Part shown: piece after piece, positions 3,001 to 60,096 of the stretch | Layout of the letters: every line of letters starts with the position of its first letter | Numbering within the stretch: the stretch's first letter is position 1 | From: Ischnura elegans | Taxonomy: Eukaryota > Arthropoda > Insecta > Odonata > Coenagrionidae | NCBI RefSeq assembly: GCF_921293095.1 | Contig: NC_060254.1 | Span: forward strand, 109,826,917 to 109,890,916 | Direction of reading: 5' to 3' | DNA: 64,000 nt | Made by a program: the position numbers and the translations under genes | Notes under the pieces: model-generated | Databases searched by the model: none | What the model saw: the letters and a program-made list of their open reading frames with translations, nothing else | Told to the model about the DNA's origin: nothing

Positions 3001-4785
3001 ACAATAAAAAATAAACAAAAAAATGTTGAAGACAAAAAAATTGTGTTGTAAAATAAATGATATTGTACAATTGTTACCAAAACTCCCGTATTCGCATAAG
3101 TAAGTGTTACCATTTCAGAATCAATCGTCGCAGAGAGACTGAAAAAAGCCTGAAAAAATTCGGCACAGGTATGGTAGGATTGTATATTATGGGGAGGTTT
3201 CTTTGAACGACTTTACCATCGTAACCCTCTAACATTTCGGGCGGGGGGGTTGAATTGAGAATACGGTCATACATTGGTTATATATGGACTAATTAAGGAC
3301 CGGCTGTAGTGTCCCTTTCCACCAACACCCACATGGGGAGACTATTTACTAAGGTATGATTGGAATAAAATGGTTAACACAGAAAAATAACTCGGAGAGG
3401 TGGTATCCAAAGAAAGTCATTCATGACAGTGCACTTGTGATTTGATGCCGGACTTTTAAGGCATGATTTGGGAAGGAAGAGGTCATAAGGATAGAGTGCG
3501 TGCCTACTGACAGGAAAGGACTGGGTTTTTGAAGGTTTAAGTAAAGCCCACTGGCACCCTCACAACTGGCTCATTACCCTAAATGCGCAAAATCAACACG
3601 CCAGTCGATTAGTCCCGGTAGAGCTCAAACCTCACCCATTCAAACTAACCCTCGTTACGATCCCATGACTGAGTGAGTTACAATACTAAGAGAACCAAAG
3701 AGTGTGTTATGCATTATAAAGGATATATTTCATGGAATAATATACCCCAATATGCACGTACACACAACTGTAAAATCAAGACGTACTCTATCACAAAAAC
3801 ACAATTGTCTCACGAAATTGATTAAAAAATATCAATCAAGGAAGTGGCCCAATCCCAGAAAACAATCCCTAGAAGTGCGTTACAGAATTTAAAATGCCGT
3901 ACAGCTTCCTCATCATTCATAATGCCAGAAATTAATAACGAGAGATATGAAAATTAATAGTAAAATGGCTATATTTTAACACAAAAAAGTATATTAACCC
4001 GAGCACACTCTAAATCTCAACTAATAAAATCAAATTACCACTTATAGCAATAAAAACAAAAAGCATACATTCCGCACATGAATGTTATTTTCTAAAGCAC
4101 ACAACCTTGGAGCGGAGCTGTCCCTTACCCTAAATAGGATGAATTCACCTGAGGTCTGGGGTAAGCTCTACCCTATGCCATACAAACCAATTTTCGGGGT
4201 TAAACACTGATAGTATGTGAATGTGAACAAATTTTCCCTTTAGACATTCCCATCTACACTCACATTAAAAGCTAGATCGGCTTGAAAAAATAACCCGTTT
4301 CCCCCATTAATGTTTACAGACAATGTCCTCGCTTAATAAGAATCCAGTTTATATTCTAAGTGACTCAATCACTCGGAATCACAGATGGATAATAATTTTT
4401 TACATGTTAATTCGAACATCACATTATCACCCCTGTGGAAACACCCTTCTTCGATTGTGACCACACAGGTTCTTATATCGCTTTTAAACACGCGATACTC
4501 CATCACTGTCACTACTCAAGCAATAATAACGTGCTATTTCACATTACAAATACTGCGAACTGGGTGAATGCTTACTTCATTGACATTACGATTCATTAAA
4601 CGGCGTTCATTTCCTGAGCAAAAGATTGAGCATTAAATTAGAACTAAAACTTTCCACACTATTCCATGCACACATAGTTTTATTTTTATCATTATATTGA
4701 TACTTCCCGTTTCCCCAACATTCCTAGTAACAGAAACTTCGAAGAAACTTCACGCCCAATTACACTTACGATTCCTAGCGGGGTA
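1..4785. other. Gene-poor stretch, no gene recognised apart from a SINE head
   Basis: AT-rich sequence with only short open frames that look random. The longest (102 codons at 2345-2653, plus) lies in a locally GC-richer stretch with no recognisable domain or splice context. A tRNA-derived SINE head is listed separately near 590-650. It may be the intron or downstream part of the CLASP gene, whose later exons should lie on the minus strand to the left, but no TOG-domain exon was recognised here. Confidence 0.5.
592..650 (-). repeat. tRNA-derived SINE head (fragment)
   Basis: Read on the minus strand, a Pol III A-box-like stretch (TGGCGTAGTGG) is followed closely by a near-consensus B box (GGTTCGATTCCC). 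The spacing is too short for an intact tRNA, which points to a degraded tRNA-derived SINE or tRNA pseudogene. Element ends are not defined. Confidence 0.5.
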
Positions 4786-5026
4786 TAAAGGCCTAGTTAC
4801 ACGATACATTAACACGTAAGGGTTAATGTCTAAATGTATGAACGCGAGAATGAACGCCAAAATGCACCGTGTAACCACCCAACTTGTACGAACGCATGCA
4901 CAGAAAATAGAACATGTTCTAATTTGGTTAATGCATTCGTACATGTTCCTTTCCGGTCCACCAAAATCATTCACGCAAACAGACATTAACTTGTACGTGT
5001 TAATATACCGTGTAACCAGGCCTTTA
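4786..5026. mobile_element. Foldback MITE, family 1, copy 1 (241 bp)
   Basis: Terminal inverted repeats beginning TAAAGGCCTAGTTACACG enclose subterminal arms containing TTAACACGTA-type palindromes, so the whole element can fold on itself. An equally long copy in the opposite orientation lies at 11122-11362. No coding capacity. Two mirror-image short open frames are by-products of the palindromic structure. The mobilising transposase is not identifiable. Confidence 0.8.
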
Positions 5027-11121: not shown

Positions 11122-11362
11122 TAAAGGCCTGTTTACACGATACATTAACACATACGTGTTAATGTCTGTTTGCGTGAATGATTTTTGTGGACTGGAACGG
11201 AACTTGTACGAATGCATGAACCAAATTATAGCAGGTTCTATTTTCTGTGCATGCATTCGTACAAGTTGGGTGGTTACATGGTGCATTTTGGCATTCATTC
11301 TCGCATTCATACATTTTGACATTAACCCGTACGTGTTAATGTACCTTGTAAACAGGCCTTTA
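11122..11362. mobile_element. Foldback MITE, family 1, copy 2 (241 bp)
   Basis: Same family and length as 4786-5026, inserted in the opposite orientation. Begins TAAAGGCCTGTTTACACG and ends with its inverted complement. Inner arms carry TTAACACGTACGTGTTAA-like palindromes. Non-coding. Confidence 0.85.
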
Positions 11363-11576
11363 TACATGAATGCATATTTACCTTGAGCTTACTCTCATCA
11401 TGCAATAACATTATTTGCTATTATTTAATTCTTAATGAATTGGTGATGGGCACTGATTTTTCTGTATACTAATATTTCCATAGAATCAATCTAAGTAAAT
11501 AAGTTTTAAAACTGTACTATTTTATCACTCTTAATTTTCCTTGCCATAATTGAACTGCAATCATTATCGATAAGAT

Positions 11577-19065: not shown

Positions 19066-20865
19066 TAGGCCACCAAAAATTGATGCCACGACCCTCATGG
19101 AATTTATTAAGACAAATTATTGCTATACGTCGGCGGCAAATCGAGATGTAAAAGAAACATGTAATACTGGAGGATAACGATCGTAAGCTGTGCTGTTGAC
19201 ATTAGAGTAAGCTGTGCTGTTGAATTTGGCAACGCCGAATTAGTGGAGAAGGTAGTCCTATCCGTCCTATGGTACGAATTCACAGCAAAACAGTCTGCAC
19301 ACATTCCACATGTGAGATCGCGAATCGGTTCCGCTGCCAACACACACACAAGCTACAACCTATTTCAATAATATAGGTAAATTCATAAACAATATACTAG
19401 CATATACCATAAAAATATAGTGGGAAATAGGCAAATACTCTTATCAAAAACTGGAAGTCACTGTCACATTCTTATATTCATCACGTACAACTTACAATAA
19501 CAGTACTCGTTATGATGAAAACAACTATTTATTCACTGATTTAAACCCTTAAATTAGCCCACACAATTGACACCGGTGACTTTTCTCACTACTATTCGTT
19601 GAAATAATGGAATAACTAACTTCACCCACAGTTTTTATTTCAATAGCGTGATCGTGAAATGTCATATATACGGTGAACAACGGAGATTAGTACGCCACTG
19701 ACAATTTTTACACTACTGTTAGACATTTATCGATAGCGTAATAGCACCTTTTACAATTCAATCACGATGGAACACAGATAACTCTTGGCCGATATTTTTC
19801 AACCTTGTCAAACTTTGTGCATTACAACCATTGGCACTGTGATTATTAGCAGCAGCTTAACGGGAGATGTCACGTTGAAAATAACACTATTTTGGCACAA
19901 AAATGTTCCTAGATGTCTCCAATCAGCGAGCAAAAGTTGGATTGACTGGAATTCACCCCCTAATACAAGCACAGACAGTCCTAAACGACGAATTCTCCGG
20001 TACCTACGAATAAACGGATGAATTTATTGTATATAAAAGCTAAGCGGACATTAGTAAACATCAAAATCGTTCTAATTACATACTTAAATGAATGATATGC
20101 CGTCGATAACATAAACTTACAATTAACGTATCCCCCTTCCAATGGCCGTGGCTCAGACTCCTACAACGATGTTATTTAGGTATTATAAAATTTTTGGTTT
20201 AACTGCTCCAGTTTTATATTTTATGCCCTTACTCAGATATTAATATTATAAATACCTAATGCAAAATATGAGGGCTTCCAAGCCTCTATCGTCGGATATT
20301 TATCTTTAAATATAAAATAATCAACACGTCTAACAAACGAAGCTTTCACAACTGCTGGCAACTAACAAACAATCACAACAATAGCTTCGCGCGATGTTTA
20401 GGCACCTTTGACGTCATCGAGGCTTCGTCGGCAGTGGCTTTGGGGGGTGAGGGAGTTTTTCCCGCGCTCTAAAATTCGTTATATTTATCATTAAATATCT
20501 CGCGAAGGAAAACTCAGATATACATGTGGTTTTCTTTGTTGTATTCAGAAAATAATTTTCTGTCCGCCTAAGAAATAAAAAAAATTCATGCAAGTTCCCC
20601 ATTACTTCTGCTTCTTGTTGTATTCGACCATAGCACGGCCGTCTTTAAACAGGCCGGAGGGATGATATTTGGCAACAACGCGGAGGAGGCCTGTTTATTA
20701 TTTGTTTATCATTCTACAACAGTGGACTCGTGGTGAATAAGATACTCGACATGACTCGTTTGAAGTAAATTTTCTTCCTCTAAACACTATTTTTGCAGGA
20801 GATGACGTTAGAAGATTCATTTTTAAACCTATCATCTTAGCTGTAGTCGAAGGTAAGTTATTTAT

Positions 20866-21081
20866 TTGAAAGTTGAAGCGTTGGAAGATGATGAGCTCAT
20901 ACTCAATCAGTTCGACCTCCTGGAAATTATGAGCAAACCAATAATATTAATCACTGCCGAGGAATATTCAGGTCTCAATTACGTTTGTGGGTATGCTGTC
21001 AGGAAGGCATTGCAGCACTTAACCATTGATATATGTGCATGTTCATGTATTTCAAATGAGGGTAGTGAAGATGCCTATTTC
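20866..21081 (+). pseudogene. Transposase C-terminal fragment (P/THAP9-like)
   Basis: An open frame with LNYVCGYAVRKALQ followed by CACSC resembles the conserved YVAGY.VRK ... C..C block near the C-terminus of P-element/THAP9-type transposases. It is preceded by a splice-acceptor-like tttttgcag at about 20798. The frame is cut by a MITE whose duplication TATTTC ends on a codon boundary. On the far side (23484) the same frame stays open for about 17 codons with further Cys residues. The N-terminal THAP, leucine-zipper and catalytic regions are absent. Family assignment is by motif only. Confidence 0.5.
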
Positions 21082-23477
21082 AAAGACTTTACACAGAATT
21101 GCGCAATCTGACGTACGTGCGAAGGCGCAATCAAAATTGCGTCGTGTAAAGCGGTGAATTGCTAGAACACATGCGAGAATGCGTGGACGCGAGACGGCAA
21201 AATAGCCCCTGTTCTAACGAAAATAGAACGTGGGCTATTTTGCCGTCTCTACTTAATACTTCCTCGGCATCACAGCCCGGTATGGGCTTTGGCCTCCGTC
21301 AAGACGCCTGTCCATTCTCTCCTGTTCTGCACTTTCTCCCACCATCTGACAATCCTCATATCCTTTATGTCTTCTTCCACATCCTGCATCCATCTTTTCC
21401 TCGGTCTTCCTCTTTTTCTCTTTCCATCCATATTTACATGTAGAATCTTCTTAGGCATCCTTTCTTCACTCATTCTTTTTACATGACCTAGCAAAACTAG
21501 CCGTTGGGTCTACACAAACCTCACTATGTCTTCGCCTCGGATAATATTTTCTATTTCCTTGTCTGTTCTTATCCTCCAAGTTACCCCATCTGTCACGGGA
21601 CCATATATCTTTCGCAAAACCTTCCGTTCAAATATCCGCAGAGCTTGCACGTTTCCAGCGAAGATGCTACACGTTTCTGCTACATATTTCACGACCGGTC
21701 TGATAAGTGTCTTATAGATCTTGAATTTCATCTCCTTAGATAGAAGAGTTGACTTCAGGAGCTTAATATTAGCAAAGTAAGCCCTATTTGCAGCCATTAT
21801 CCTCTTGTTGATCTCTTCTGTCATTGAGTTCTTACAGTTTAAATTAGTACTGAGGTAGCTGAATTATTTTACATTTTCAAAGTTGTACTGCCCAAATGTA
21901 ACGTTTTGAGTCCATCTTCTGTCTTCCGTGGTCGACATTTTCATGTATTTCGTTTTTCTCTCATTGGTTCTGAGCCCTATATTCTTACTCTTCTGTTCTA
22001 AGATTTTGAATATTTCTTTCAGAGAATCCATATTCCGTGCCTATTAGAACTATGTCGTCGGCATATGCATATGCCTGAGTAGATTTATGCACAATTGTCC
22101 CCTCTAACCCCAGTTCTTTCATGGCTTCATGTAGACACAGATTAAATAGTACTGCTGATAGAGAATCTCCTTGTCTTACTCCAGTTGTTATCTTAAAGGC
22201 TTCACTAGTCCTGCCCCCGATATAGGCCTTAGCTTGAGATCCTTCCATGGTCATATTTACCAACTTAATTAGTTTTTTTTGGTATTCCAAATCCCTCCAA
22301 TGCCTTCAACATTTTTCTTCTATTGACACTATCAAAAGCTTGCTGGAAATCAATGAAAAGCATATGTAGGTCAATGTTGTACTCATAACATTTCTCCATG
22401 CATGCATGTCTCATTACAAAGATTTGGTCGGTGGTCCCTCTTCCCGGCCTCAAGCCACATTGGTATTCACAAGGATTACTTCATCATACGTGTTAAGTCT
22501 CCTCTGCAGTATACAAGAAAGTATCTTATAAGTGACATTTAGTAATGTGATTCCCCTATAGTTGCTGCATTGCAATTTTTCTCCCTTCTTGAATATAGGG
22601 AAAATTAAACCAATCTTCCATTTCTCAGGCATCTCTTCTTTCTCCCATATTTCACATATCAGTCTATGTAGGTTCTTTGGTAATTTTTTTCCTCCATACT
22701 TGATTAACTCCGGTACAATTTGATCTTCCCCTGGAGCTCTCCCATTCCGCTGCCGTTTTAACTACTCCTCCACCTCCTCAATTGATGGCCTACTAATACT
22801 GGTGTCCACCCTCATGTCCAACATTTCTCCATCCTCCTCATCTATCTCATTGACATTCAGCAATTCCTGAAAGTACTCGGCCCATCTTCCCATTACTTCT
22901 TCCTCTGTTCCAACCAACCTTCCATTCTTATCCTTACATGCGTTTGTTCTTGGTTGAAATTTATTTGTCATCTGTTTGATTGCCTGGTATAACTTTCTAC
23001 TTTCATTTTGTGTGTTCAGTTCCTCAATCTTTTCCACATACCCTTTTAAGTACTGTATTTTTCTTTATTCGCAGTATTTTATTTGCTTGTCTTCTGCTTT
23101 CTTTATATCTTTCGACATTTTGTCTTGTCTCTTTCTGGATGGTGTTCCTTCGATCTATATTCTTCCTTTTTATAGCTTTTCTGCACTCATTATCAAACGA
23201 TTCTTCATTCATTGTTCTCTTTCTTTCTCCTATGGTCTCCTCTGCAGCCTCTTCCATAGCCTTCTTTATATTAAGCCATTTTCTCTCTACCGAGTCATTT
23301 ACACTCAGGTTCTCTGCTCCTTCTTCTAGTTTCTTACCCAGGATTTTCTGGTATTGGGCTACAATTTTGCCGTCTCGCATCTGTTCTAGCAATTCACCGC
23401 TTTACACGACGCAATTTTGATTGCGCCTTCGCACGTACGTCAGATTGCGCAATTCCGTGTACCGTGTAAAACGGACT
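21082..23477. mobile_element. Foldback MITE, family 2, inserted in element A (split by a LINE)
   Basis: Ends AAAGACTTTACACAG and the complement of AGTCCGTTTTACACGG. Duplicated target TATTTC at 21076-21081 and 23478-23483. Arms repeat GCGCAATCTGACGTACG and GAGACGGCAAAATAGCCC in inverse orientation. An intact relative is at 34264-34494. Without the LINE it is about 270 bp. Confidence 0.8.
21250..23363 (-). pseudogene. 5'-truncated RTE-like LINE inserted in the MITE
   Basis: Minus-strand frames give, in order: linker (23392-23024, ERKWLNIKKAMEEAAEETIG ...), pre-RT segment (FQPRTNACKDKNGRLVG ... WAEYFQELLN), RT fingers (EKWKIGLIFPIFKKGEKL, NYRGITLLN), palm ([15 protein letters not shown]), catalytic YADD in AYAYADDIVLIG (about 22060), and the C-terminal GKRKRGRPRKRW ... 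EAKAHTGL (about 21290). At least five frame changes show it is dead. Target duplications ATTTTGCCGTCTC lie at 21237-21249 and 23364-23376. The 2,114-bp copy lacks ORF1 and most of the endonuclease. The 3'UTR is only about 20 bp, with no poly(A), as in RTE-like families. Confidence 0.9.
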
Positions 23478-24323
23478 TATTTCTCCTATGTCTGTAATAA
23501 GTGTTGGTCTTCATGCACTGGCCATTATGACTCTAGCAGAACCCAAGTATGAGGCTACATTTCATATCTTCCTTGACGATAATTTAAGAGGAATTTATTA
23601 AGACAGCTGTTTTCAGTGCAATGTACCGAACAGTTATTTTTTGCAAGATTTATTAAAACTCTGACAAATGTATTTCTAAATAATTATACTAAAGTGAGGA
23701 ATAACAGACTGGATGTCGCTAGACACACTTCCAATAAGAGAAAATACTCGACAATTATGCGACTGCTTTCAATTCGGTGACTATATATTTCAATAAAATC
23801 ATCTGTTTTATACATGACTAATTTGTATCATTCCTGTCTGCTCCTGCTTCACAATCAGCAATGGATGCACGATTATCCCGTGGTAAGTAAAACAGCAGTT
23901 TTTTAGTGGATTTCTTTGCCGCAAAGCAATTTCTTTTGCCAATATTCTACGCCGAAACAATAGACTTGGTCGCAGGTGAGAGGAATCCCGCAGGCCTCCT
24001 AGATGACGGGCGCGCGACGTTGCCACATCGGTCACTCCGGCCTGTTTAAAGACGGCCGTGACCATAGCCACCTAGAGAGAAGGCCCGATCACAAGCGACG
24101 GCTGAGGCTCTGACGTCACCACGAGAAGTGCTCTGTTGTTCCGGCTGCCGTTGGAGACCAGTTTGTTTACGAGTGTGTTTACGTTACGTTCTACCACATT
24201 TTATGGATTTTTGTGGTGTTATTTGGTGGAAATTGAAGTTTCTGAGGATAGTGAAGTTTCCTTTATTCTTGAATTTCATTCGCTGGGCTTAAGAAACGTA
24301 TTTGTTAGGCATTTTTGTTAAAA

Positions 24324-25470
24324 GTTCCTTTCGCGTGTGTAGTGCCGGGATGCGAAAAAAACTTCAGGAGTGGACCCGAAGTTCAAGTTTTTAGCTTTCC
24401 AGAAGATCCTGAGTTGAAGAAGGAGTGCATTTGAGGGATGAGAAGAGACAACTTCACCTCCACGAAAAACAGTAAGGTATGTACCCTTTCTCGCTGTGAT
24501 GTAATTTCTAGCTAGATGTGGCTTGGGGATGTTGACAGTCCTGAAAGTGGCGATTTAAATATAGAAGCGACAATTCAATAGGAAATTCTTGTATTTTAGC
24601 TGTATTTTTTGTATTATTTTGTTCAGTAAACGTGAGGTTGAAGGAGTTTCTGGGAATTATAATATAGAAGCCAAGTTTATAGTAACGATTAGTCTTCCTT
24701 ATATTGCCCTCTGCTGTGCTATGCGTCTGAAACTCATTGTCAGTGAAACAGTGCTTATTTAACTATACTTTTTCAACTTAGAGTTGAAAAGCAATTTGAA
24801 TTATTTACGCGATATGTTATGTACTTGGGTATTTTCGATAAAACTACCAGTCTTTTATTTTTGCCGTACGTAGTACCTTATATTACGGGGGAAAACACAT
24901 AAATTTATAGGATTCTTGAGTTCAAATTAATTTCAGCTTATGTATAATTTCGTAAGACCAACGATATTTACTTTATTAATTTCATGGAAAGCATCTAATC
25001 ACGAGATTTTCATGAGTCTCGTCAGAAAAGTATATAGTATGTTATTTGTGTGTATGAACCACCGTGAATGAAAATATGCGTTTTTCTCTTACAATTGGTG
25101 CAATGAACCGTAATTTATCTGTGCCCGGCTTTCATCATCTAAAATTAACTTATGGTCTAGTTTTAAATAAAAAATTAAAAAAAGGTATATAATGATCTCC
25201 TATATTCACTGGCCTTGTCATTAGATATATTTCTCATGCAGAAATGCCTGAAATTGGGAATGAAATAACTACGTAGTAATTTATATGGTATTTTCTTATT
25301 TATTAATTTTAGGCGTGTGAGCTTCACTTCACAGCGAGTGACATCAGGAAAGAATCTGTGGCCTTGCCGGAGAAGATGGGGAAGATAATTCGTGTTGAAT
25401 TAAAGGTGCCCAGATGGCGAGGAGGGTGCCACTTCTTCATAATTACCGAACTATCATCTAGAAGACAGAA
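24324..25470 (+). pseudogene. THAP zinc-finger domain, two exons, inactivated
   Basis: Exon 1 (about 24324-24476) encodes VPFACVVPGCEKNF ... FSFPEDPELKKECI, a TGA stop at 24432-24434, then MRRDNFTSTKNSK. An AAG/GTATGT donor and an aatttttag acceptor (25312) join in phase to exon 2, starting ACELHFTASDIRK. Together these supply the THAP C2CH ligands (C-x4-C and C-x2-H in CELHF) and the FSFP and RRDNF positions. After the domain the usual GAVP-like box is recognisable only in a shifted frame. The stop may be a CGA-to-TGA transition. It sits inside element B and is probably the DNA-binding half of its transposase. Confidence 0.8.
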
Positions 25471-26777
25471 TAACATAGTGGTTGAAGTGACATATAGGAT
25501 TATGGTGGATTTGTTTTTTATAAGTGGATGATGTGACAGTGGAAATTCGTCGGAAAAACTATTGAAGATAGTTATTGTGACTTCTGCCAGTGCTCTTTTA
25601 AATAATTTTTGTTCAAAAGAGGTTACCAGTATTTTTTTCATCAAATTAGTTCATGGTAATTAGAGAAAATTGCCGGTATTATTGTGATTGACTAATGAAA
25701 ATACAAAATATTTTTATTTTATTTCTGTGTTTTTTTCTTTCCTGCCACCAAAATTCCTTGTGGTGATTACTTCATGCATGTAAAGTAAGATCTGAGGTGT
25801 GATTTAAGAGATGTCGTGTTCTTTATACAAATGTTTATGCTGGTGATTTGGCAGGACTTTCAGATTTTTTATTAGATTGATACATCTACTGAAGTGAAAT
25901 TGAAACTTTTGCTCATCCCAAATAATTTTTCAAATACTTAAGCGCCTAGGACGAGTGCGTTTTATTAGCTGAGGCTGGACTATACGTAAATTTTGCTGGC
26001 ATTTTGATGTATTCGAGCGTAATAATAGCAGAAGTGTCAAAGAATTATATTTCACAAGTAACTATCATTGAAAATCTTATTTCGTCAGGCTCTAAGGTAA
26101 GATTTTCATAGCCCATGGGCATATCTAATTCAGTGTCAAAATAAATAAGAATTCACTCTTAATTAATAGATCCATTTGGGACCTTGTGTGAACACCTTTT
26201 ACTCTGCCAGAAAGAAATTATTTATCCAAGGAAAGTATATGGACTGCAACCAGGTTTAATCAAATACTTGACATTACCACTTAATGCTATCGACTTTCGA
26301 GACGCTTTTGTGTAGAAGAATAAATTCTCTTTGGATGCAAAGAGCCTTTTCTAGATAGTTATTTCAGATTTTAATCTTGTTATGTAGTACTTAAAGTTCA
26401 CAACAACAGTTTAAGAATCAGTTATAAATAGTTTTTTTCTGGAGAGCGGCGAAGTTATATGGTACGTGGATTAGACGCAATATTAACGAATAGCTTCAGA
26501 TTGAAAATTTTTTATGCGCGTCAGTATTTTCTCGGAACCCGCTGACTATTTTCTTATTGGCTGAGTAAATTAGGTATCAATTATCTTTTAATTACGGAGG
26601 CTAAACCACCGTCGCAGACAGAACCACGACTACTTCCATTATGCCATGCTCTCTCTGGCGGTAGCACTACAATGAGTGACGTCACACGCCTGTGAACAGG
26701 CCTTTTCTCTAGGTGGCTGTGATTCGACCCACCCTTTCCGTTGTTTACTCATTACCGTTTGTTACCGTACGTCACAT
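25471..26777. other. 3' part of element B, no coding recognised
   Basis: AT-rich sequence between the THAP remnant and the right inverted repeat. No catalytic transposase motif found, so an internal deletion of the original element is likely. Confidence 0.5.
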
Positions 26778-27003
26778 GGGTGTACCCAGCAGGGGGGGGG
26801 CTGCCCTCCCCCCAGAAGCAAAAATTGCAAAAGTCTTTAAGCAAAACCAGTACTGAATTAAAACGAAAGCATTCAACATATTTTCTTTAAAACCACGAAA
26901 AATGATTTGTATAAGTGTAAGATATGTAACTAAAATAAAACTAATTTTTCAAGGAAATAATCCCATCAACTGATGTCACAACTTGGTTTGCCCCCCCCAA
27001 CAT
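26778..27003 (+). mobile_element. GGG(C/T)GTACCCAG element, copy 1 (right-truncated)
   Basis: Begins GGGTGTACCCAGC with a G run, then shares aagcaaaa, cagtactgaatt and aaacgaaag blocks with the copy starting at 27238. Ends in a C run. Non-coding. Confidence 0.7.
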
Positions 27004-27237
27004 ATGAAACATTAGCAATGTCTAATCTTGAACATGCACTGCAATATGGAATCTATTTCATGTGAGGTATGCTGATTCTAGCGAGAGTCAAATATATATT
27101 CCTACAAATGGTGGTTTTCCTATTTCCTACCCAAAACGAAAAAGGTTCTCACGATGAATTAAATGAAATTACACACTTTAAAATCATTATCTACAAGATG
27201 GAAGCAGTTAGGACTACTATTTTCATATTTGTTGCAT

Positions 27238-27566
27238 GGGCGTACCCAGCGAGGGGGAGGGGCAGCTGCCCCCCCTAGAAGCAAAAATCGCCTAAGTTTT
27301 TAAGTAAAATCAGTACTGAATTGAAACGAAAGTATTCCACTAATTTTCTATAAACCCACTAAAAATGATATGTATTAGTAAAAGATAGGTAACTAAAATA
27401 AAACTATTTTTTCAAGGAAATAATCTCATAAACTAAATTAAGCGCTGTTACAATTTTCTTTAAATATTGGTTTCATACACCTTTTCCATGCTAAAATGTC
27501 ACAACTTGGCTTGCCCCCCACTTAACCATAGCTTGACCCCCCCCCGTTATGATCCTGGGTACGCCC
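27238..27566 (+). mobile_element. GGGCGTACCCAG element, copy 2 (329 bp)
   Basis: Inverted ends GGGCGTACCCAG and CTGGGTACGCCC, with G and C runs just inside each end. Direct repeat of the copy 460 bp to the left. Non-coding MITE-like unit. No target duplication seen. Confidence 0.75.
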
Positions 27567-28323: not shown

Positions 28324-31300
28324 GTGAGTGTTATTATTTTTTTAATTCCAGTGTGTTCTTCGAGGCCGGCGTTCTCTTTATTCCATTCATTGTTGCATAG
28401 GATATTTTTCCTCAGATACATATTTTTCATTTCGCAACGTTAGCCTGTATAAAATTGCTGCCTGCGTACGATTTTGTGGGAAGTTTAATGCTTGCTCATC
28501 GAAGTCCTAATTTCATGTAAGGTCATTCCATGATAACCATAACTGATGGAATATCTAACATGATTAGTGCTTTTATCGCAAGCCATAGCTACAAAAATAT
28601 GCTCTTTAGTCCTCCAAGTGTGTTTGTTTATCGTTTATCCGTGTCCAAAATAAATTAAAGCTCTTCACCGCACCAACGTTTACCTCTGCAATGGACGGCC
28701 TTATTGTCGAAGTTCCCCGATTATTTCCATAATCAGCACAGCCTAAATTTATCTTTATTGCTCCCGTTCCAATGTTTGTCGTGGATTAGGGGTCACGTGA
28801 GAGTGTTTATCAATCTCCCGATAACCAGTTCGGATAATTTCTTTTACCTTGTGGATTTGATGTTTTCATTCATCATCAAACCCTTCGAAATATTCTAGCG
28901 ATGAGAGTGATGATATTCATCTAATAGTGGCACTCTTCGGAAGAAGATTAAGGGGTAATTAATAGTGAATTGTTAGAAAGGGAATCGAAACTGTGGTGTA
29001 TGATATATTTTTCACAGTAGCGTCTTTGAGGAGAGAGTCCTAGATACATGTAAGGATTGGTTGAGTAGTTTTAAATAAAAACTCCCCATTTTTTGTGTTT
29101 TTAAAATATATGGTAACAGTTGAGGAAGTACAATATTACTGATGCATGTATAGGAAGTACTACGATAGCTCTAACCGGCGAGCAATAGACAGCTTGAACG
29201 CTGAACTTCTTCCTCCTCTCCGGGGGGCCTCTGACCCCCTGCCCCTCTTGTCAAACTCTACTTCGTAATTCGGACCCAGCCTATCTCTTATCGCCACGAG
29301 CTCTTGAACTAATTAAGTTACAGCACTGCCTTTCTCCACGACGAGTTTCACTAGACCTTCAAAGTAACTCCATATCCTCACGAGGTACCGTTATTTTGTG
29401 GCCTTTCATCTTTTCGCGGTTAGCCACGTGTAGTTCTAAGAATTTTCACTCCAAGCAATGATTATAACCGTACTTGAATGCATAAATCCAAAAAACGACT
29501 CGAGTCCATTTGACAACAATTTGGAATAAATGTTTGGCATATCCTTGGATGCAATACAGCTGTTGATTCAATTTTGATTCTACTTATGGCTATCACATTG
29601 TTAAACATATCTTTACATGGAGAGAAGTTGAAGTGACAGCTTTGGTTGTTTTGTAGATGGCTGGAGAAAGTGGTCTATTTCAAAATTCGTATGATGCACT
29701 TACACCGCTTTGGAATTGGCGGTTTCAATTTTCCTCCATTCGTTTTCCCTCGGTCCCCTTCAATAGTCTGAGGAGAGAGGAGGAGGGGGAATTTCAAAAA
29801 GATCAGAGGTCGAAACAGTGTTTGCTGTACTGTTACAGAAGATGAGGGGACATGTTTATGGAGTTGCCATTTAGTTACGCAAGGCCAAAAGTAATTACAA
29901 GCTGATGTAATTTAAGAGCTGTCTTAACAAATTCGGTTCAAATATATTTTCACAATTTTTTAATAAAATCTGCGTGATTTTTAGCTGAATAGGGTGGTTT
30001 CCTATTATTTTTTTATTGCCTAAATCGAAAGATTATTACTCCTGGAGTACGTATTTCGCGCTTTTAGATTTTTAAATGACGATATCTATTTTTCGCGATT
30101 AAATGAAAAGTGAAAAATTTCAAGCGCGCAAAAACGCGACGCGTAAGTAGGAAAGTCCGTGCGACGCATTTCTGGTTCCCCCTCTCTCCTTGTGAAGTGA
30201 CCTTGATCGAGGCTCTGAGCGCTGATAGGACACAGGATGCTAGCGGATAGCTGAGTACCTTGCTGAATGGTAGCGCTTGGCTTAAAAAAGGTTTATTAAT
30301 ACCTTATCAAACGAAGAAAACTTTCCGACCTTAGCCAGTTTTAATAGGTGATTATTAAGACATGCTTCCCTGAGCTCTGTGCCTCATGCATGCATTGGTA
30401 ACCTCAGACGATGTATAACTCCTATCCTCTCGTGTAGAAACTAGGTCCCTGTGACGTCACGCGGAGTGGAATCGCATGGGCGCCAATCTGGCCTTTTTCA
30501 AATGAGGATAAAATTTGACCCTTGCCATTCGCGTGAACCGGTATTTCAAAAACCAAATAATTTGTGTATTATGAATACACTAATGGTGGGTAACGAATCG
30601 CAATCAATGCCTTTCGTTTTCTTTGATGAAGGAAACTACCCTATTGTAATGATGATGTTATGAATCGAAAGCGGTGACTTCACATAAATTGTTTGAAAAA
30701 TCAGGAGGATATATTGAGTTTGTCGTCACGATTCGACGAAGAATACACGCCAACCATCCTGCATATACATGTGGTAGGTTATATCTCATTTGAAATGCTG
30801 CTTTCGTCCTCGGTCAAGGTCGATTGCCGCACCGATGCCCCGACCAATCTATCCTGACGACCGCAGCACTGTGGTCAACACGCGTTGGTGGGGTGTTGTG
30901 AAAGAGTCGCCATGCTAAGCCAAATTATCGAAAGCCTGGGTAGATAATGTGGACTCTTCCATATCTTCTAGATTCTTTATGTACACAAAGAAGCTTGCGG
31001 AAAACGCTAATAGATTAAAACACAGAAAAAGGGACATTCACAATTCTTTTCCAGACGTTTTACTGGGATTGCCCACTATTCTTGATGAGAGAGAATGGCT
31101 CCTCTCTCACTACTCGAGTCATTCTCTTCTTTGTATTTGAGTGTGTATATTTGCCAAAGGCGATCTGCATGAATGCGAATTTGAGATTGTGTAACTAGAA
31201 TGGTTATTTCTTATTGCTGGGATCGGCGCTCCTCGAAGCGCCTTATCTATCCTAATGTCTGTGTGAGTGTGCGAATCATTCATTTCATTTCCCCTTCTGC

Positions 31301-34263: not shown

Positions 34264-34494
34264 TAAAGGCCGTTTTACACGGGGCACGAAATTGCGCAGA
34301 TTAGAGCTGCATTAATTTCTAAAATGGCGTGGAATTGCGCGAATGCATGAACGAAATTAGAACAGGGGCTATTTCGCCGTCTCGCATCCACGCATGTGTT
34401 CTAGCAATTCACCGCTTTACACGACGCAGTTTTGATTGTGCCTTCGCACGTACGTCAGATTGCGCAATTCCGCGTACCGTGTAAATCGGCCTTA
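34264..34494. mobile_element. Foldback MITE, family 2 (231 bp), intact
   Basis: Ends TAAAGGCCGTTTTACACGG and the complement of TAAGGCCGATTTACACGG. The inner arms match the LINE-split copy at 21082-23477 (gcgcaatctgacgtacg, gagacggc). Its first bases are shared with family 1, though the interior differs. Confidence 0.85.
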
Positions 34495-38033: not shown

Positions 38034-41000
38034 ATGAAGATGAATAATAATGGTGGAGGTGACAGCAATGAAAATCTTCTTCAGCCAGGACAACAAATCA
38101 CCCCCATAATTAGCATTGAATTAGCCAAAGACCTGGTGCAGAAACTGTTTGGCGTGAAGACTAAAGAGATACATGAACTTAATGCATATGATGACAAAAA
38201 TTTCCATGTGCTGGTAAGTAAGTAAGTAAAATGAATAATGCATTTAGTTTTTTAATCAAACTTTTCTATTCATTTCCTCATCACATATTTCTTACTTTCA
38301 TAACTTGCAGGCTGATGGTATTGAAAATCCTAACATAGTTAAGGGAGCTGAACATGGATATGTATTTAAAGTTATGAACTCTTTGGATTCTAAGAATGTA
38401 TCTTTAGTTGATGGGCAGAAAGAAATAATGCTCTTTCTTGGTAAGTAAAACATGATAAAATATTGGTGGAATAAATGATAAAAGTCATGCAGTCAAACAA
38501 AGTTAATACTTTCAACTATTTGAATTTTACAGTTAACCATGAGATAATGTGCCCAAAACCTGTGCCAACTTTGCAGAATGAATACCATTCGATTATCGAA
38601 CTACCAGTACCTGAAGGTAAGGAAATATTCCATTGGTGATGCAATCTAATTTTTTTACTATTATGTATTATTATTAATAAGGTAAAAAAGCTCATAAAGT
38701 TACAATAAAGCTAATTTTGATTTGTGACGTTCCATTTCTCAGTCGAGAGAATCATTTCAATAGCCAAGAATTCACTTTCAATTACAATACCTAATAATAA
38801 TTTGTCATGCTTCAATGACATTGGGACTAGGAAGTCCCTTCTTCCATCTAATCCCTCAGTGAGGATCTAACCCTTTAATCAGCATGTCAGAAGTGCTGTG
38901 CAGAAGGGCTTAGGCTTATCAATGATAAGATTTCAAATTTCATCAGCCAGCAAGTTATGAAAATAATTTTTATGGACACAATCTCAAAAAATTCTCTCAA
39001 AAAGAGAGTTTGGCATCTTTCTCTTTGGCATCAAAGTTTCCTCCAAGCGATTTTATTGCTATATCCGAACCCTAGCACCTTTAGTATTTAGATAGAGGTT
39101 TTATTTGAATGGATGCATTTTAAAAATGCTAAGCATGAATTTGGTATCAGACAGGTTAAGCTAGGAAATGATATTTTGAAAATTCATGTGTGAGGTACCT
39201 AGTTTACATGAATTTGCCTATCTTTGCTCTTTAAGCACAGAGCATATCCACTGTAAAAAGCTTACCACTGTCCACTTAAATATGCATTTCCATTTGCTCT
39301 CCTTCATAAACCCCTTTCAACTGGCTGTATTACTTGATGAAACTCCTACTTGATAATGCTAAATTAAAACTTACTGGCAATTTTCCACAAATATATATGT
39401 ATGTACTTAAATTTTATTTACATGACCAGTTTCAATACCTTTTGTATTATCATCAGGTGACCAAGATTTAATGATTTACTAATATTATAGAATTCCACAG
39501 TATGAAGCCTAAAGCATCTATGTATACTCCCACTTGAGCTAAATTTCAATGAGTAAAAGCAGAAAGTGATGTGATGAAATGGTAAATCAAACTTCATAGG
39601 TTGATGCGAGAGTGCAACGAAATTAAAAGGAACACACACATGAATGCAATTAATGCACCACAATCTCAAAACTTGTCTAATCACTCTGTGGTATCAGCAG
39701 TGCTGCTCACAGATTAGTTTTCAACTTTAATCACTATAGCTAGTTAAATTTGTGTGGATATGGATTTCACTGGGGCACTACTTATTTCTCAACCTGCATT
39801 TTGAATCACTCCTAGCTCCACCTGGACATCCACCTGGAAAACATCTTGTCAGACTTTTGGAATACCAGCCTGGAACTCTCTTTTGTAATGTTCCGTCTTC
39901 TCGAGAACTATTTATTGATGCTGGGATGTATGTAGCTAAATTGGACAATATCCTCAAGGTATCAGAAATGCAAGTACGGAAAAGGGCTGAAGTTTTTTAA
40001 ATTCATTGTGTGACAGTTTGTGTTTTCCTGATTTAGGATTTTAGCCATCCAGTCTATGCATCTCACAAATCTCTCTGGAGTCTATCCTCAGTGCCTGAAC
40101 TGAAAAAGTTTCTCTTTGCTGTGAAGAGTCTTGATGATAGAGAGATGGTTGGTCGAATAATTGATTGTTTTGAGAGGGAGGTGTCACCATCCATGGAATC
40201 TTTGGAGAAAGGTATGCATTTCAAATGTACAATCAGATAAGGTTGAAAAAGTATCAAATACCATATTCACCGTGCCCTCCCTCCCCCTAATGTATAGCAC
40301 TCCATTCACACCCTCTCGTCATCTCGTCGTGCATTTTTTGCACCCTCATGTCTCACACTTCCTCATTCCTTTTCCTCTCCATCCTTATCAACTTCTCCAT
40401 TCTTTTCCTTTTGTCTTGAGCACCTCCGCAGTCTATTGCGATAGAGTTTGAAAAGTAGAGATTATCCTTTTTATCTGTTGCCTACTTCTCGGGCTAATAG
40501 GGTGGTTTCCTATTATTTTTTTATTGCCTAAATCGAAAGATTATTACTCCTGGAGAACGTATTTCACGCTTTTAGATTTTTAAATGACGATATCTATTTT
40601 TCGCGATTAAATGAGAAGTGAAAATTTTCAAGCGCGCGAAAACGCGACGCGTATGAATGCCGGGAAATCTCTCCGTGTGACGTATTTCTGGTTCCCGCTG
40701 CCGCAAGTGAGGTGACCTTGAGGCGAGGCTTAGCGCTGATACGACGCAGGCTGCTAGCGGGTAGCTGAGTACCCTGCTGGCTGGTAGCGCTTGGCTTAAA
40801 TAAGGATTATTAATACCTTATCAAATGAAGAAAACTTTCCGACCTTAGCCAGTTTTAATAAGTGATTATTAAGACGTGTTTCCCTGAGCTCTGCGCCTCA
40901 TGCATGCAATGGTAACCTCAGACGATGTATAACTCCTATCTTCTCGTATAGAAACTAGGTCCCTGTGATGTCACGTGGAGTGGCATCACATGGGCGCCAA

Positions 41001-41672
41001 TGTGGCCCTTTTCAAATAAGGATAAAAATGGACCATTGCCTTTCGTTTTCTTTGATGAAGGAAACTACCCTATTGAAGTGAAAAATCTACAGCCATTTCC
41101 GTCTATGTCTTGTCCTTGAATTTAAAATTTCAGGCATGGTGCATGGAGACTTCAATGAGCAGAATATACTGTGTGCCCAAATGCCAGAGGGAGAATGGAG
41201 GGTTTCAGCTATATTGGACTTTGGAGACTCCCATTTTTCTTGTTACATTTTTGAACTGGCCATTGCTATGTGCTACATGATGCTTCAGTGTAAACATATG
41301 GATCAGCTTGAAGCGGGCGCATGCTTTTTGGCTGGATACACCTCTGTACGGCAACTTCCTGAATCAGAGATGAAAATTTTGAGGGTAATTCTTCAATCTA
41401 AGATAATTTTCTATTATTATTTTGTGTTGCAAAAGCTTACGAAAACTTTTCTCAACTATTTTTTTCAGACATGCATTGCAGCAAGATATGCTCAGAGCTT
41501 AATTTTAGGTGCTTATTCCTACTCACTTAATCCCACAAATGATTACGTGATGACCACAGCAAAATTGGGATGGAAGCAGCTGAAGCACTTTTGGGCCACA
41601 ACATCCGAATCACTCCACTCAGTGTGGGATAAGGAAATAAAGAATGTTGCAAATGAATCAGTTTCCAGGTGA
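38034..41672 (+). CDS. HYKK: Hydroxylysine kinase, complete seven-exon gene
   Basis: Phosphorylates 5-hydroxy-L-lysine, using GTP in the characterised enzyme, in the lysine/collagen breakdown route. An aminoglycoside-phosphotransferase-fold kinase (AGPHD1). Exons: 38034-38213, 38311-38440, 38533-38616, 39816-39958, 40037-40211, 41134-41384, 41469-41672. All junctions are GT-AG with compatible phases and give 388 aa, close to the vertebrate enzyme (about 373). Seen: N-lobe LNAYDDKNFHVL (50-60) and HGYVFKVMN; C-lobe catalytic HGDFNEQN at 241-248 (Asp243 base, Asn248 metal ligand) and LDFGD with Asp266. A splice acceptor (38018) precedes the first exon, so a 5'UTR exon exists upstream; ATGAAGATG offers two starts. 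An AATAAA lies at 42070-42075. A MITE sits in intron 5. No disruption seen. Confidence 0.93.
39410..39466 (-). repeat. Penelope-type hairpin motif in HYKK intron 3
   Basis: On the minus strand: CTGATGAT, an AATAC/GTATT hairpin with AAAA loop, then GAAACTGGTC and ATGTAAATAAA. Same layout as in the 13.9-kb hairpin element but with a different stem sequence. Probably a solo Penelope terminal-repeat remnant. Confidence 0.55.
40496..41074 (+). mobile_element. AATAGGGTGGTTTCC MITE, copy b, in HYKK intron 5 (579 bp)
   Basis: Same family and orientation as 29988-30645, with about 80 bp missing near the right end. Lies wholly within intron 5, ending 60 bp before the exon 6 acceptor, in the same strand sense as the gene. 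Confidence 0.85.
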
Positions 41673-52327: not shown

Positions 52328-52686
52328 TACACCAAAGGATGAAGTTCGCCATGAAAAAATACATATTTGACTTAGCTGGGATTCAAACCCGGATCTCCCG
52401 ATTGCCGGTCAGGCGTGTCAGCCAGTTACACCACCAAGCCATTTCCTCGGAGCGAACTTCGGGATGGGTTTTACCGAACAAGATGTTGGTGTCACAAGTC
52501 CACACTGTGGCACATGTGGCGAGGGTCATGCTTACTAAGCCACTGTCGGGAGAAAAACCCTCATTTTGTCGCTGGTCTGCGACGACGAATTTCAAAGCAC
52601 TGCAGCAACAAGTGACTTTGTATGCAGTCACGTGCACGGGTGCAAAGTCAAATATTTTTTCATGGCGAACTCCATCCTTTGGTGTA
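52328..52686. mobile_element. Inverted-repeat element containing a tRNA-like Pol III head (359 bp)
   Basis: Ends TACACCAAAGGATGAAGTTC and, read from the right, TACACCAAAGGATGGAGTTC, continuing as GCCATGAAAAAATA, so about 40 bp of inverted repeat. Inside, the minus strand has A-box TGGCTTGGTGGTG and B-box GGTTTGAATCC about 50 nt apart (52378-52440). Long open frames across it on both strands are by-products. Confidence 0.65.
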
Positions 52687-55320: not shown

Positions 55321-55389
55321 TAAGAAGAAAATCTGTAAGTGTCATTAATGAGTAATAGGAAAGTTCAAGGGACGAGCAACCATTAAAAC

Positions 55390-56051
55390 AATAGGGTAGT
55401 TTCTTTCATCAAAGAAAACGAAAGGCATTGATTGCGATTCGTTACCCACCATTAGTGCATTCATTATATACAAATTATTTGGTTTTAGAAATCCCAGTTC
55501 AGACAAATGTTAATTGTCAATTTTAACCTCATTTGAAAAAGGGCAGATTGACACCCATGGGATACCACTCCACGTGACGTCACAGGGACCTAGTTTCTAT
55601 ACGAGTAGATAGGAGTTTTACATCATCTGAGATTACCAACGCATGAGGCACAGAGCTCAGGGAAACATCTCTTAATAATCACCTATTAAAAGTGCCTAAG
55701 GTTGGAAAGTTTCCTACATTTGATAGGTTATAATAATCCTTATTTAAGCTATGCACTACCTTCTAGCTGGTTACTCTGCTACCTGCTAGCAGCCTGCATC
55801 GAAGCGGTGCTCAAAGCCTTGCCCCAAGGTCACCTCACACGGCAAAATAGGGAACAAGAAATACGTCCCACAGTCTTTTCCCAGCATTCATACTTAGCCG
55901 TCGTGTTTTCGCGCGCTTGAAATTTTTCACCTTTCATTTAATCGCGAAAAATAGATATTGTCATTTAAAAATCTAAGAGCGTGAAATGCATACTCCAGGA
56001 GTAATAATCTTTTGATTTAGGCAATAAAAAATAATAGGAAACCAACCTATT
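55390..56051 (-). mobile_element. AATAGGGTGGTTTCC MITE, copy c (662 bp), reversed
   Basis: Starts AATAGGGTAGTTTC and ends with the complement (ggaaaccaacctatt). Opposite orientation to copies a and b. Retains the segment missing from copy b. Inserted between recognisable repeats and a Penelope fragment. Confidence 0.85.
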
Positions 56052-57974: not shown

Positions 57975-58490
57975 GCCCTACCCACCATTAAGGGAAGGAG
58001 AGAAAAATCCTTCGTGTACCCTTCCTTGGAACTCCTTCCCTTACCATCCGTGTACCCTTCCTCTACCCACCATTAAGGGTAAGGGAAGGAGAGAAAAATC
58101 CTTCGTGTACCCTTCCTTGGAACTCCTTCCCTTACCATCCGTGTACCCTTCCTCAACCCACCATTAAGGGTAAGGGAAGGAGAGAAAAATCCTTCGTGTA
58201 CCCTTCCTTGGAACTCCTTCCCTTACCATCCGTGTACCCTTCCTCTACCCACCATTAAGGGTAAGGGAAGGAGAGAAAAATCCTTCGTGTACCCTTCCTT
58301 GGAACTCCTTCCCTTACCATCCGTGTACCCTTCCTCTACCCACCATTAAGGGTAAGGGAAGGAGAGAAAAATCCTTCGTGTACCCTTCCTTGGAACTCCT
58401 TCCCTTACCATCCGTCAACCCTTCCTCTACCCACCATTAAGGGTAAGGGAAGGAGAGAAAAATCCTTCGTTTACCCTTCCTTGGGACTTA
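57975..58490 (+). repeat. 91-bp minisatellite, about 5.7 copies
   Basis: Unit contains cccaccattaagggtaaggg, aggagagaaaaatccttcg and tgtacccttccttggaactc. Equivalent points fall at 58001, 58092, 58183, 58274, 58365 and 58456, exactly 91 bp apart. Copies are nearly identical, implying recent amplification. The first unit lacks 6 bp. Confidence 0.95.
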
Positions 58491-59399: not shown

Positions 59400-59730
59400 T
59401 CCAACCCTTCCTGTACCCTTCATTGAGGCTGGCCAAACCCTTCCCGTACCCTCCAGGAAGGAGAGGGCGTACCCACCAATGTTCTAAAATACCCTTCGTG
59501 TACCCTTGCTGAAGGGTACACCTATCCTTCCTGTACCCTTGCTGAAGGGTACAGGAAGGGTACACTTATCCTTCCTGTACCCTTCATCGAGGCTGGCCAA
59601 ACCCTTCCCGTACCCTCCAGGAAGGAGAGGGCGTACCCACCAATGTTCTAAAATACCCTTCGTGTACCCTTGCTGAAGGGTACACCTATCCTTCCTGTAC
59701 CCTCAATGGAGGGTAAACCTCTCCTTATTG
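59400..59730 (+). repeat. Second tandem array, unit about 160-165 bp, two copies
   Basis: Blocks gaggctggccaaacccttcc, aggaaggagagggcgtaccc and accaatgttctaaaataccc each occur twice at about 163-bp spacing. Built from the same gggta/taccc words as the 91-bp array. Confidence 0.85.
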
Positions 59731-60020: not shown

Positions 60021-60096
60021 CCGACCCAGGCGGGACTCGAACCCATGACCTCTTGTTTGACAGGCAAGGACGTTACCCCACCGCCACCAAGGCCGG
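60021..60096 (-). tRNA. tRNA-Asp-derived SINE head or pseudogene
   Basis: Minus strand: GGTGGCGGTGGGGTAACG as D-arm/A box, loop CTGTCAA giving a GTC (Asp) anticodon flanked by CTTG/CAAG, and B box GGTTCGAGTCC. The acceptor stem pairs poorly, so a SINE or pseudogene is likelier than a functional tRNA. Confidence 0.5.

Follow-up and report, generated by a model that had tools for sequence, protein, structure and literature searches.

Insertions of one transposable element (TE) into another have been used to order TE activity, for example by TinT (PMC3014933) and by interruption analysis (PMC2517846), according to the available excerpts of both papers. Excerpts on nests in D. melanogaster (jockey2 in Cr1a) indicate that these were possibly moved or duplicated after their formation (PMC1794594). 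For P-like elements, the accessible parts of the literature describe 8-bp target duplications in Drosophila P and zebrafish P-like elements, together with internally deleted P-like copies in zebrafish (PMC7776569), and 8-bp duplications in Anopheles P (PMC1562414). Galileo duplications are typically 7 bp (8 bp in three copies) with the consensus GTANTAC or GTATTAC, and in D. willistoni TE fragments (P, Mar, 1360) became part of transposing Galileo ends, as given in excerpts of PMC4168063. Here we analyze a nest of transposons at 20622-26729 of a 64,000-nucleotide stretch of Ischnura elegans (assembly GCF_921293095.1, contig NC_060254.1, positions 109,826,917 to 109,890,916; hereafter the window), in which an element B encloses an element A, A encloses a foldback miniature inverted-repeat transposable element (MITE), and the MITE encloses a long interspersed nuclear element (LINE).

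A, the MITE and the LINE together form a single composite element of the P superfamily, which has multiplied as one unit, and the insertion of A into B is later than both inner insertions. This reverses the order given as unambiguous by an earlier reading of the window from its letters (the sequence-only reading), namely B, then A, then the MITE, then the LINE. We estimate a probability of roughly 0.94 that the composite spread as a unit and that one copy of it jumped into B. The co-occurrence of the layers, the duplications, the kin of the intermediate forms and a unique B/A junction are all directly observed. Four mobile layers are present, and the four short direct-repeat pairs that the sequence-only reading took for the layers' own target duplications all lie at the places it gave; one of the pairs, TATTTC, does not belong to the MITE. 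The features are as follows (loci elsewhere in the genome are numbered with the prefix L).

20622-20628, no strand: left target duplication of B, ATTCGAC; B copies elsewhere also have 7-bp duplications
20629-20633, forward strand: first 5 bp of B (CATAG), separated from the remaining B by A; other B copies begin CATAGCC
20627-20633, no strand: left target duplication of composite A, ACCATAG, straddling the B duplication and the B tip
20634-24060, forward strand: composite element, 3427 bp, assigned as a P-superfamily deletion derivative with MITE and LINE; one of 72 LINE/MITE junction places
20634-21089, forward strand: left part of A, ending at about 21087-21089, with a remnant of the transposase C-terminal coding region; same deletion junction as L052, L055 and L016
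21076-21081, no strand: left TATTTC, claimed as MITE duplication; by comparison with MITE-free relatives, pre-existing transposase-coding sequence and no duplication
21090-23474, forward strand: MITE, palindromic form, with the LINE inside; right edge at about 23472-23474
21237-21249, no strand: left copy of the 13-bp repeat flanking the LINE
21250-23363, reverse strand: LINE, 5'-truncated and frame-broken, with reverse transcriptase pieces (Pfam RVT_1)
23364-23376, no strand: right copy of the 13-bp repeat flanking the LINE
23475-24060, forward strand: right part of A, including the terminal inverted repeat
23478-23483, no strand: right TATTTC, claimed as MITE duplication; pre-existing, set against the MITE edge by a small deletion common to most composites read
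24061-24067, no strand: right target duplication of composite A, ACCATAG, in which CATAG is the start of B again
24068-26721, forward strand: body of B, a separate family with the CA...TG end style of A and 7-bp duplications
24336-24472, forward strand: first piece of the B THAP domain, one stop within; the second piece runs from 25313 after a likely intron
26722-26728, no strand: right target duplication of B, ATTCGAC
34267-34493, reverse strand: second MITE-family copy in the window, asymmetric and without LINE

The window's own genome (1.72 Gb) was searched with the left part of A, and 40 of the 119 candidate matches were scored (97-100% identity). At the first eight loci, seven of them besides the window, A continues directly into the MITE and the LINE. 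Longer stretches were fetched for the 20 places ranking after the window's own match, the seven loci among them; A-left, MITE and LINE stand in the same order and place in 20/20, and the right part of the MITE and A-right are also in the stretch in 19, the exception (L027) being interrupted by other DNA. The composites are 3375-3651 bp long, with L011 at 6217 bp owing to an extra insert. Perfect 7-bp target duplications, all different, flank 17 of the 19 composites with both ends in view; L023 matches at 6/7 positions, and a second copy directly adjoins L011. An exact match to the LINE/MITE junction is found at 72 genome places (0 in a backward-read control), 70 of them within 3.6 kb of a listed A piece (strand not checked). 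A-right is present at the 71st (L063); at L062 the MITE arm is interrupted by other DNA, and the sequence fetched stops short of where A-right could appear.

Because the inner arrangement is the same in 20/20 sister copies, 17/19 have duplications of their own and the junction recurs at 72 places, the composite is one unit, and the inner "duplications" are therefore inherited internal sequence. As both the LINE and the MITE are conserved in all 20, they entered an ancestor of A elsewhere. Alignment to genome-wide copies thus places the inner layers as conserved internal parts of a larger element, the outcome that the sequence-only reading had itself named as refuting it, and the nesting gives no relative clock of the kind the sequence-only reading proposed, since a cut-and-paste element takes its cargo along when it moves.

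Some sister copies bear further insertions. L013, L014 and L015 have in common an extra insert of about 210 bp in the LINE, largely palindromic, a further layer inherited by a subclade. At L011 a second A copy starts one base after the first (from 6818), head to tail, and the first copy has an additional 2.7-kb insert within its LINE.

The outer nesting event was found only in the window. A search with B gave 1027 candidates, of which 40 were scored, 39 of them other than the window's own with 89-95% identity to the window B. A was not seen at 11 other B loci (nine read at the left end; L033 and L034 shown at an inner place), and the nine start with CATAGCC after unrelated left flanks. The B/A junction has a single occurrence in the genome with ≤1 mismatch allowed. 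B was thus at this locus before the composite arrived, and A landed 5 bp inside its left end with a 7-bp duplication of its own, splitting the B terminal repeat; B presumably lost its mobility through this insertion. A four-layer mobile unit including B was considered and rejected, as other B copies are without A and the B/A junction is unique.

The ends of both elements agree with the sequence-only reading, in which ACCATAG flanks A five bases inside B and ATTCGAC flanks B. A has perfect 26-bp inverted ends (CACGGCCG...) with ACCATAG immediately outside. Once A is excised in silico, the B termini are CATAGCCACCTAGAGA and CACAGCCACCTAGAGA with ATTCGAC immediately outside, and the left end without A would read ATTCGAC-CATAGCCACC. 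Of five B copies tried, four are flanked by perfect 7-bp duplications (GCCATTC, GCTAGGG, GCTGTGC and GCTATAC); the right end of the fifth, L036, is outside the fetched stretch. The window has one 7-bp repeat with 16-bp inverted ends (≤1 mismatch), that of A; removal of A yields one, that of B; and 60 first-order resamples of the window have none. It is the long inverted ends that carry the statistical weight, because shorter ends (10 bp, 1 mismatch) give 4 in the window versus a resample mean of 2.2. At fixed positions, a 7-bp repeat matched by chance in 42 of 400,000 random position pairs and a 6-bp repeat in 141. Readings with 8-bp duplications, GACCATAG for A and ATTCGACC for B, were rejected, as they need a shift of one end base and 7 bp is what the family copies have, L056 (8 bp) excepted.

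Two P-superfamily features tested in B are present, a THAP coding remnant (Pfam THAP, E 3.1e-9, two exon pieces joined with X at the stop) and 7-bp duplications. Separately, the composite's target at 20627-20633 lies across the outermost end of B, and the composite's duplication there departs from the G.....C pattern of the other copies.

The identity of A was obtained through a full-length relative, as the window's fragment alone is weak (Pfam PF12596, E 0.24; no match in PDB). The related locus L041 has a 143-aa frame, itself without a Pfam match; of 237 candidates from a protein search with this frame, 150 were scored. It pointed to L056, a relative 3388 bp long that shares its termini with A and has an 8-bp duplication (GTTTGGTA) and an open frame of 922 aa that matches Pfam THAP (2.5e-15), TNP-like_RNaseH_N (4.9e-14) and, in PDB, the P transposase structure 6p5a (E 1.1e-4). 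A and L056 have their ends and flanking coding sequence in common. Judged by the THAP and TNP-like RNase H domains, the shared ends and the 7- or 8-bp duplications, both are placed in the P superfamily, and A is presumably mobilised by the transposase of full-length relatives. No relatives of A were found in phage records.

Kin of the shorter forms were also recovered. L052 is A without the MITE (1095 bp; duplication matching at 6/7), and L055 is A with the MITE and without the LINE, the last bases of its right end being lost. One internal deletion junction is common to L052, L055, L016 and the window and is absent from L056, which keeps about 2.3 kb there. In the protein search, six matches span the MITE site and the halves of A form 50 pairs, with gaps of 5 bp (L052), 212 bp (L055), 2.0-3.04 kb (44 pairs) and 5.9-10.7 kb (four pairs, with further inserts or mispairings); 35 left and 9 right halves are unpaired.

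The sequence-only reading had taken TATTTC for the target duplication of the MITE. Six MITE-free relatives were read at the MITE site (L056, L051, L052, L053, L054 and L041). In L056, L051 and L052 two copies of TATTTC, at a distance of 23 bp, already enclose AAAGACTTAGACAATGGAGGACT (with one base changed in L051), which rules out the 6-bp repeat as a MITE duplication. L053 and L054 have diverged letters there, and in L041 the stretch is deleted; a single TATTTC as the ancestral state, drawn from L041, was dropped since L041 has its own deletion there. In L055 the MITE is placed between ...AAAGACTTA and TTAGACA..., and the MITE target duplication is most likely the 3-bp TTA, trimmed in the window copy; the left tip of the MITE is damaged in L055 and in the composites, and the left TTA could partly be MITE letters. 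The bases that separated the right end of the MITE from the second TATTTC are missing from the window and from 18 of the 19 other composites in which this part is visible; more is lost there in L021, and L013-L015 read TATTCC in place of TATTTC. This deletion sets TATTTC against the MITE and mimics a 6-bp duplication.

A 3-bp TWA target duplication is a hallmark of Harbinger elements. Flanks of the TWA type were seen at two MITE sites only, TTA in L055 (with the damaged left tip) and TAA on both sides of the second MITE copy at 34267-34493 if its ends are read AGGCCG...CGGCCT. The whole MITE of L055 was compared with those of two composites, the window and L016; it is asymmetric and theirs are near-perfect palindromes. 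The palindromic form was found here only together with the LINE, and the palindrome and the LINE appear to have arisen in one lineage. A genome-wide search for the palindromic MITE without the LINE (≤3 mismatches) found none among 69 places, seven LINE-free ones being known by the search letters alone. Most of the 69 run into LINE letters, five are backward-read left arms from the window's clade, and the seven LINE-free places depart from the searched letters in their first four or five bases. No relatives of the MITE or the LINE were found in viral and bacterial collections.

The LINE, RTE-like according to the sequence-only reading, matches Pfam RVT_1 (E 1.7e-9 for 21985-22305) in frames interrupted by stops. 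The sequence-only reading had it flanked by a 13-bp duplication, and the repeat is real. It is probably a true target duplication, because it is single in LINE-free MITE arms (L055 and, with one base changed, 34267-34493) and is kept in the composites, with single or double changes in some; a LINE-free palindromic MITE as proof was not found.

The history that we favor begins with a full-length P-superfamily transposon (L056-like) that lost about 2.3 kb and gave rise to a short non-autonomous A (L052-like). A MITE then inserted into what remained of the transposase coding sequence in one A copy (L055-like), and a truncated LINE settled in the MITE, which in that lineage became a near-perfect palindrome. 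The composite, still holding both ends of A, moved by cut-and-paste to dozens of sites, with a 7-bp duplication of its own at 17 of the 19 read at both ends, and one copy landed 5 bp within the left end of B, which shares its end style.

Among the 50 paired copies listed, MITE-free A (1,095 bp) occurs once and A with the MITE but without the LINE once; the LINE-bearing form, at 72 junction places, measures 3.38-3.65 kb in 18 of 19 measured copies, near the 3,388 bp of L056. It is conceivable, if rather unlikely, that the cargo made the element successful, in that a restored length or end spacing, or a contribution of the LINE or the palindrome, let a crippled P derivative multiply.

Several observations weigh against spread of the composite as a unit in its simplest form. 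Of the 17 perfect composite duplications all have G first and 14 have C last, and neither ACCATAG nor ATTCGAC in the window has the initial G. L027 and L028 are without the first 22 LINE bases, and the right MITE edge of L021 differs. With its asymmetric MITE and lost right tip, L055 is not a simple direct ancestor of the composites, and the action of a helper transposase on the composite is presumed. In a distance comparison of 18 fetched composites and the window (L011 and L027 excluded), pairwise distances of the parts correlate only moderately (Spearman 0.34-0.63; 0.34 for A versus LINE), so some sequence exchange between copies is possible. In the same set the average difference between two copies is 2.6% for A, 4.6% for the MITE and 3.3% for the LINE.

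The moderate correlation bears on the best-placed alternative, in which A copies scattered first and gene conversion later spread the MITE and LINE among them. The many and similar A copies would suit such a process, as would that correlation. The A and LINE trees nonetheless recover the same small clades, placing the window with L009, L010 and L012 (support 0.998 and 1.0), its nearest composites at 1.0-1.5% difference in A and LINE. Over 3433 bp, A parts included, no base differs between L016 and L019, which stand on separate contigs and have different duplications and dissimilar flanks (54/193 bases alike), and a LINE-sized gap is missing in only 2 of the 50 paired A halves, even though the unpaired halves stand outside this count. 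We regard gene conversion as the main route as very improbable. The L016/L019 identity also suggests that movement of the composite was recent, unless the assembly misleads.

Two further histories, each of which we think has hardly any chance of being right, place the inner insertions at this locus. The first is that of the sequence-only reading, B followed by A into B, the MITE into A and the LINE into the MITE, all here and each with its own duplication. Physical nesting and the four direct-repeat pairs agree with it. The MITE and LINE at the same place in all 20 other A copies, the LINE/MITE junction at 72 places versus the B/A junction at one, and TATTTC twice in three MITE-free relatives speak against it. 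In the second, the MITE and LINE entered A while it lay in B, and all other composites were copied from here, which the nesting alone would allow. The window copy is instead a derived tip with L009, L010 and L012 (branch about 0.018). The MITE loop is altered in the window's clade, whereas in L016 its letters are still those seen in L055 and in the second MITE; TTG after the right TATTTC is absent from the window's clade but present in the other composites and L056; and 8 bp are missing at the left end of the MITE in the window copy alone. The derived position, the altered loop and the missing bases therefore indicate that the MITE and LINE did not enter A here.

Least probable of all is that A is no transposon of its own and forms with B one large element with internal repeats, a view that the place of A at the very tip of B and their common CA...TG ends and 7-bp duplications would favor, but that fails against A copies at many sites with other flanks, B copies without A and the unique junction.

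Other repeats were noted in the window. Just right of B, 26775-26971 and 27235-27434 are two copies (85%) of another repeat, the second starting GGGCGTACCCAG, with CTGGGTACGCCC at about 27556. One dispersed repeat has three copies (29988-30531, 40496-41045 and 55388-56051; 84-89% identity), and 4783-5026 and 11122-11365 form an inverted repeat pair with 90% identity (69% for the self-match in the other orientation). Tandem arrays at 57989-58488 (91-bp unit) and 59406-59726 (164- and 33-bp units) are rich in CCTTC/GAAGG. The tRNA-like matches at 52368-52440 and 60022-60093, both on the reverse strand, may be heads of short interspersed nuclear elements and not genes.

Spread of the composite as a unit means that nesting depth misleads on chronology, as the sister copies make the innermost LINE older than the outermost nesting event, and that, in the absence of sister copies, nested cut-and-paste elements cannot serve as a clock. 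Carried along by a cut-and-paste element, a fragment of a non-LTR (long terminal repeat) retrotransposon has come to lie at 72 places, relatives of each stage (full-length, deleted, with MITE, with LINE) coexist in one genome, and a small deletion can counterfeit a target duplication. TinT, in the excerpts available, counts retroposon nests; with a DNA-transposon composite, a single old LINE insertion could enter a nest-based clock dozens of times wherever DNA transposons abound in the genome.

Compared with the P superfamily (P, 1360, Galileo), L056 is alike in its THAP domain, TNP-like RNase H and P transposase match in PDB, and the 7-bp duplication is as in Galileo. The duplications of Drosophila, zebrafish and Anopheles P are given as 8 bp in the excerpts cited, whereas the composites here have 7 bp and L056 has 8. 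The MITE has TTA or TAA adjoining it in L055 and in the second window copy, and may be of the PIF/Harbinger type. The literature on nests and composites that we consulted did not contain the present element, which is no proof of its being unpublished. The four related jockey2-in-Cr1a nests of D. melanogaster have an unsettled mechanism, so far as the excerpted account goes, whereas the dozens of copies found here, with their own duplications at 17/19 sites read, indicate that the nest itself transposed. Permanent cargo of a MITE and a LINE sets the element apart within the P superfamily; in Galileo of D. willistoni, as described in the parts cited, cargo lies in the long terminal repeats, and here a MITE with a LINE occupies what was once coding sequence. 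We class the element as a variant of these systems, in which a cut-and-paste composite has a LINE-bearing MITE for its cargo.

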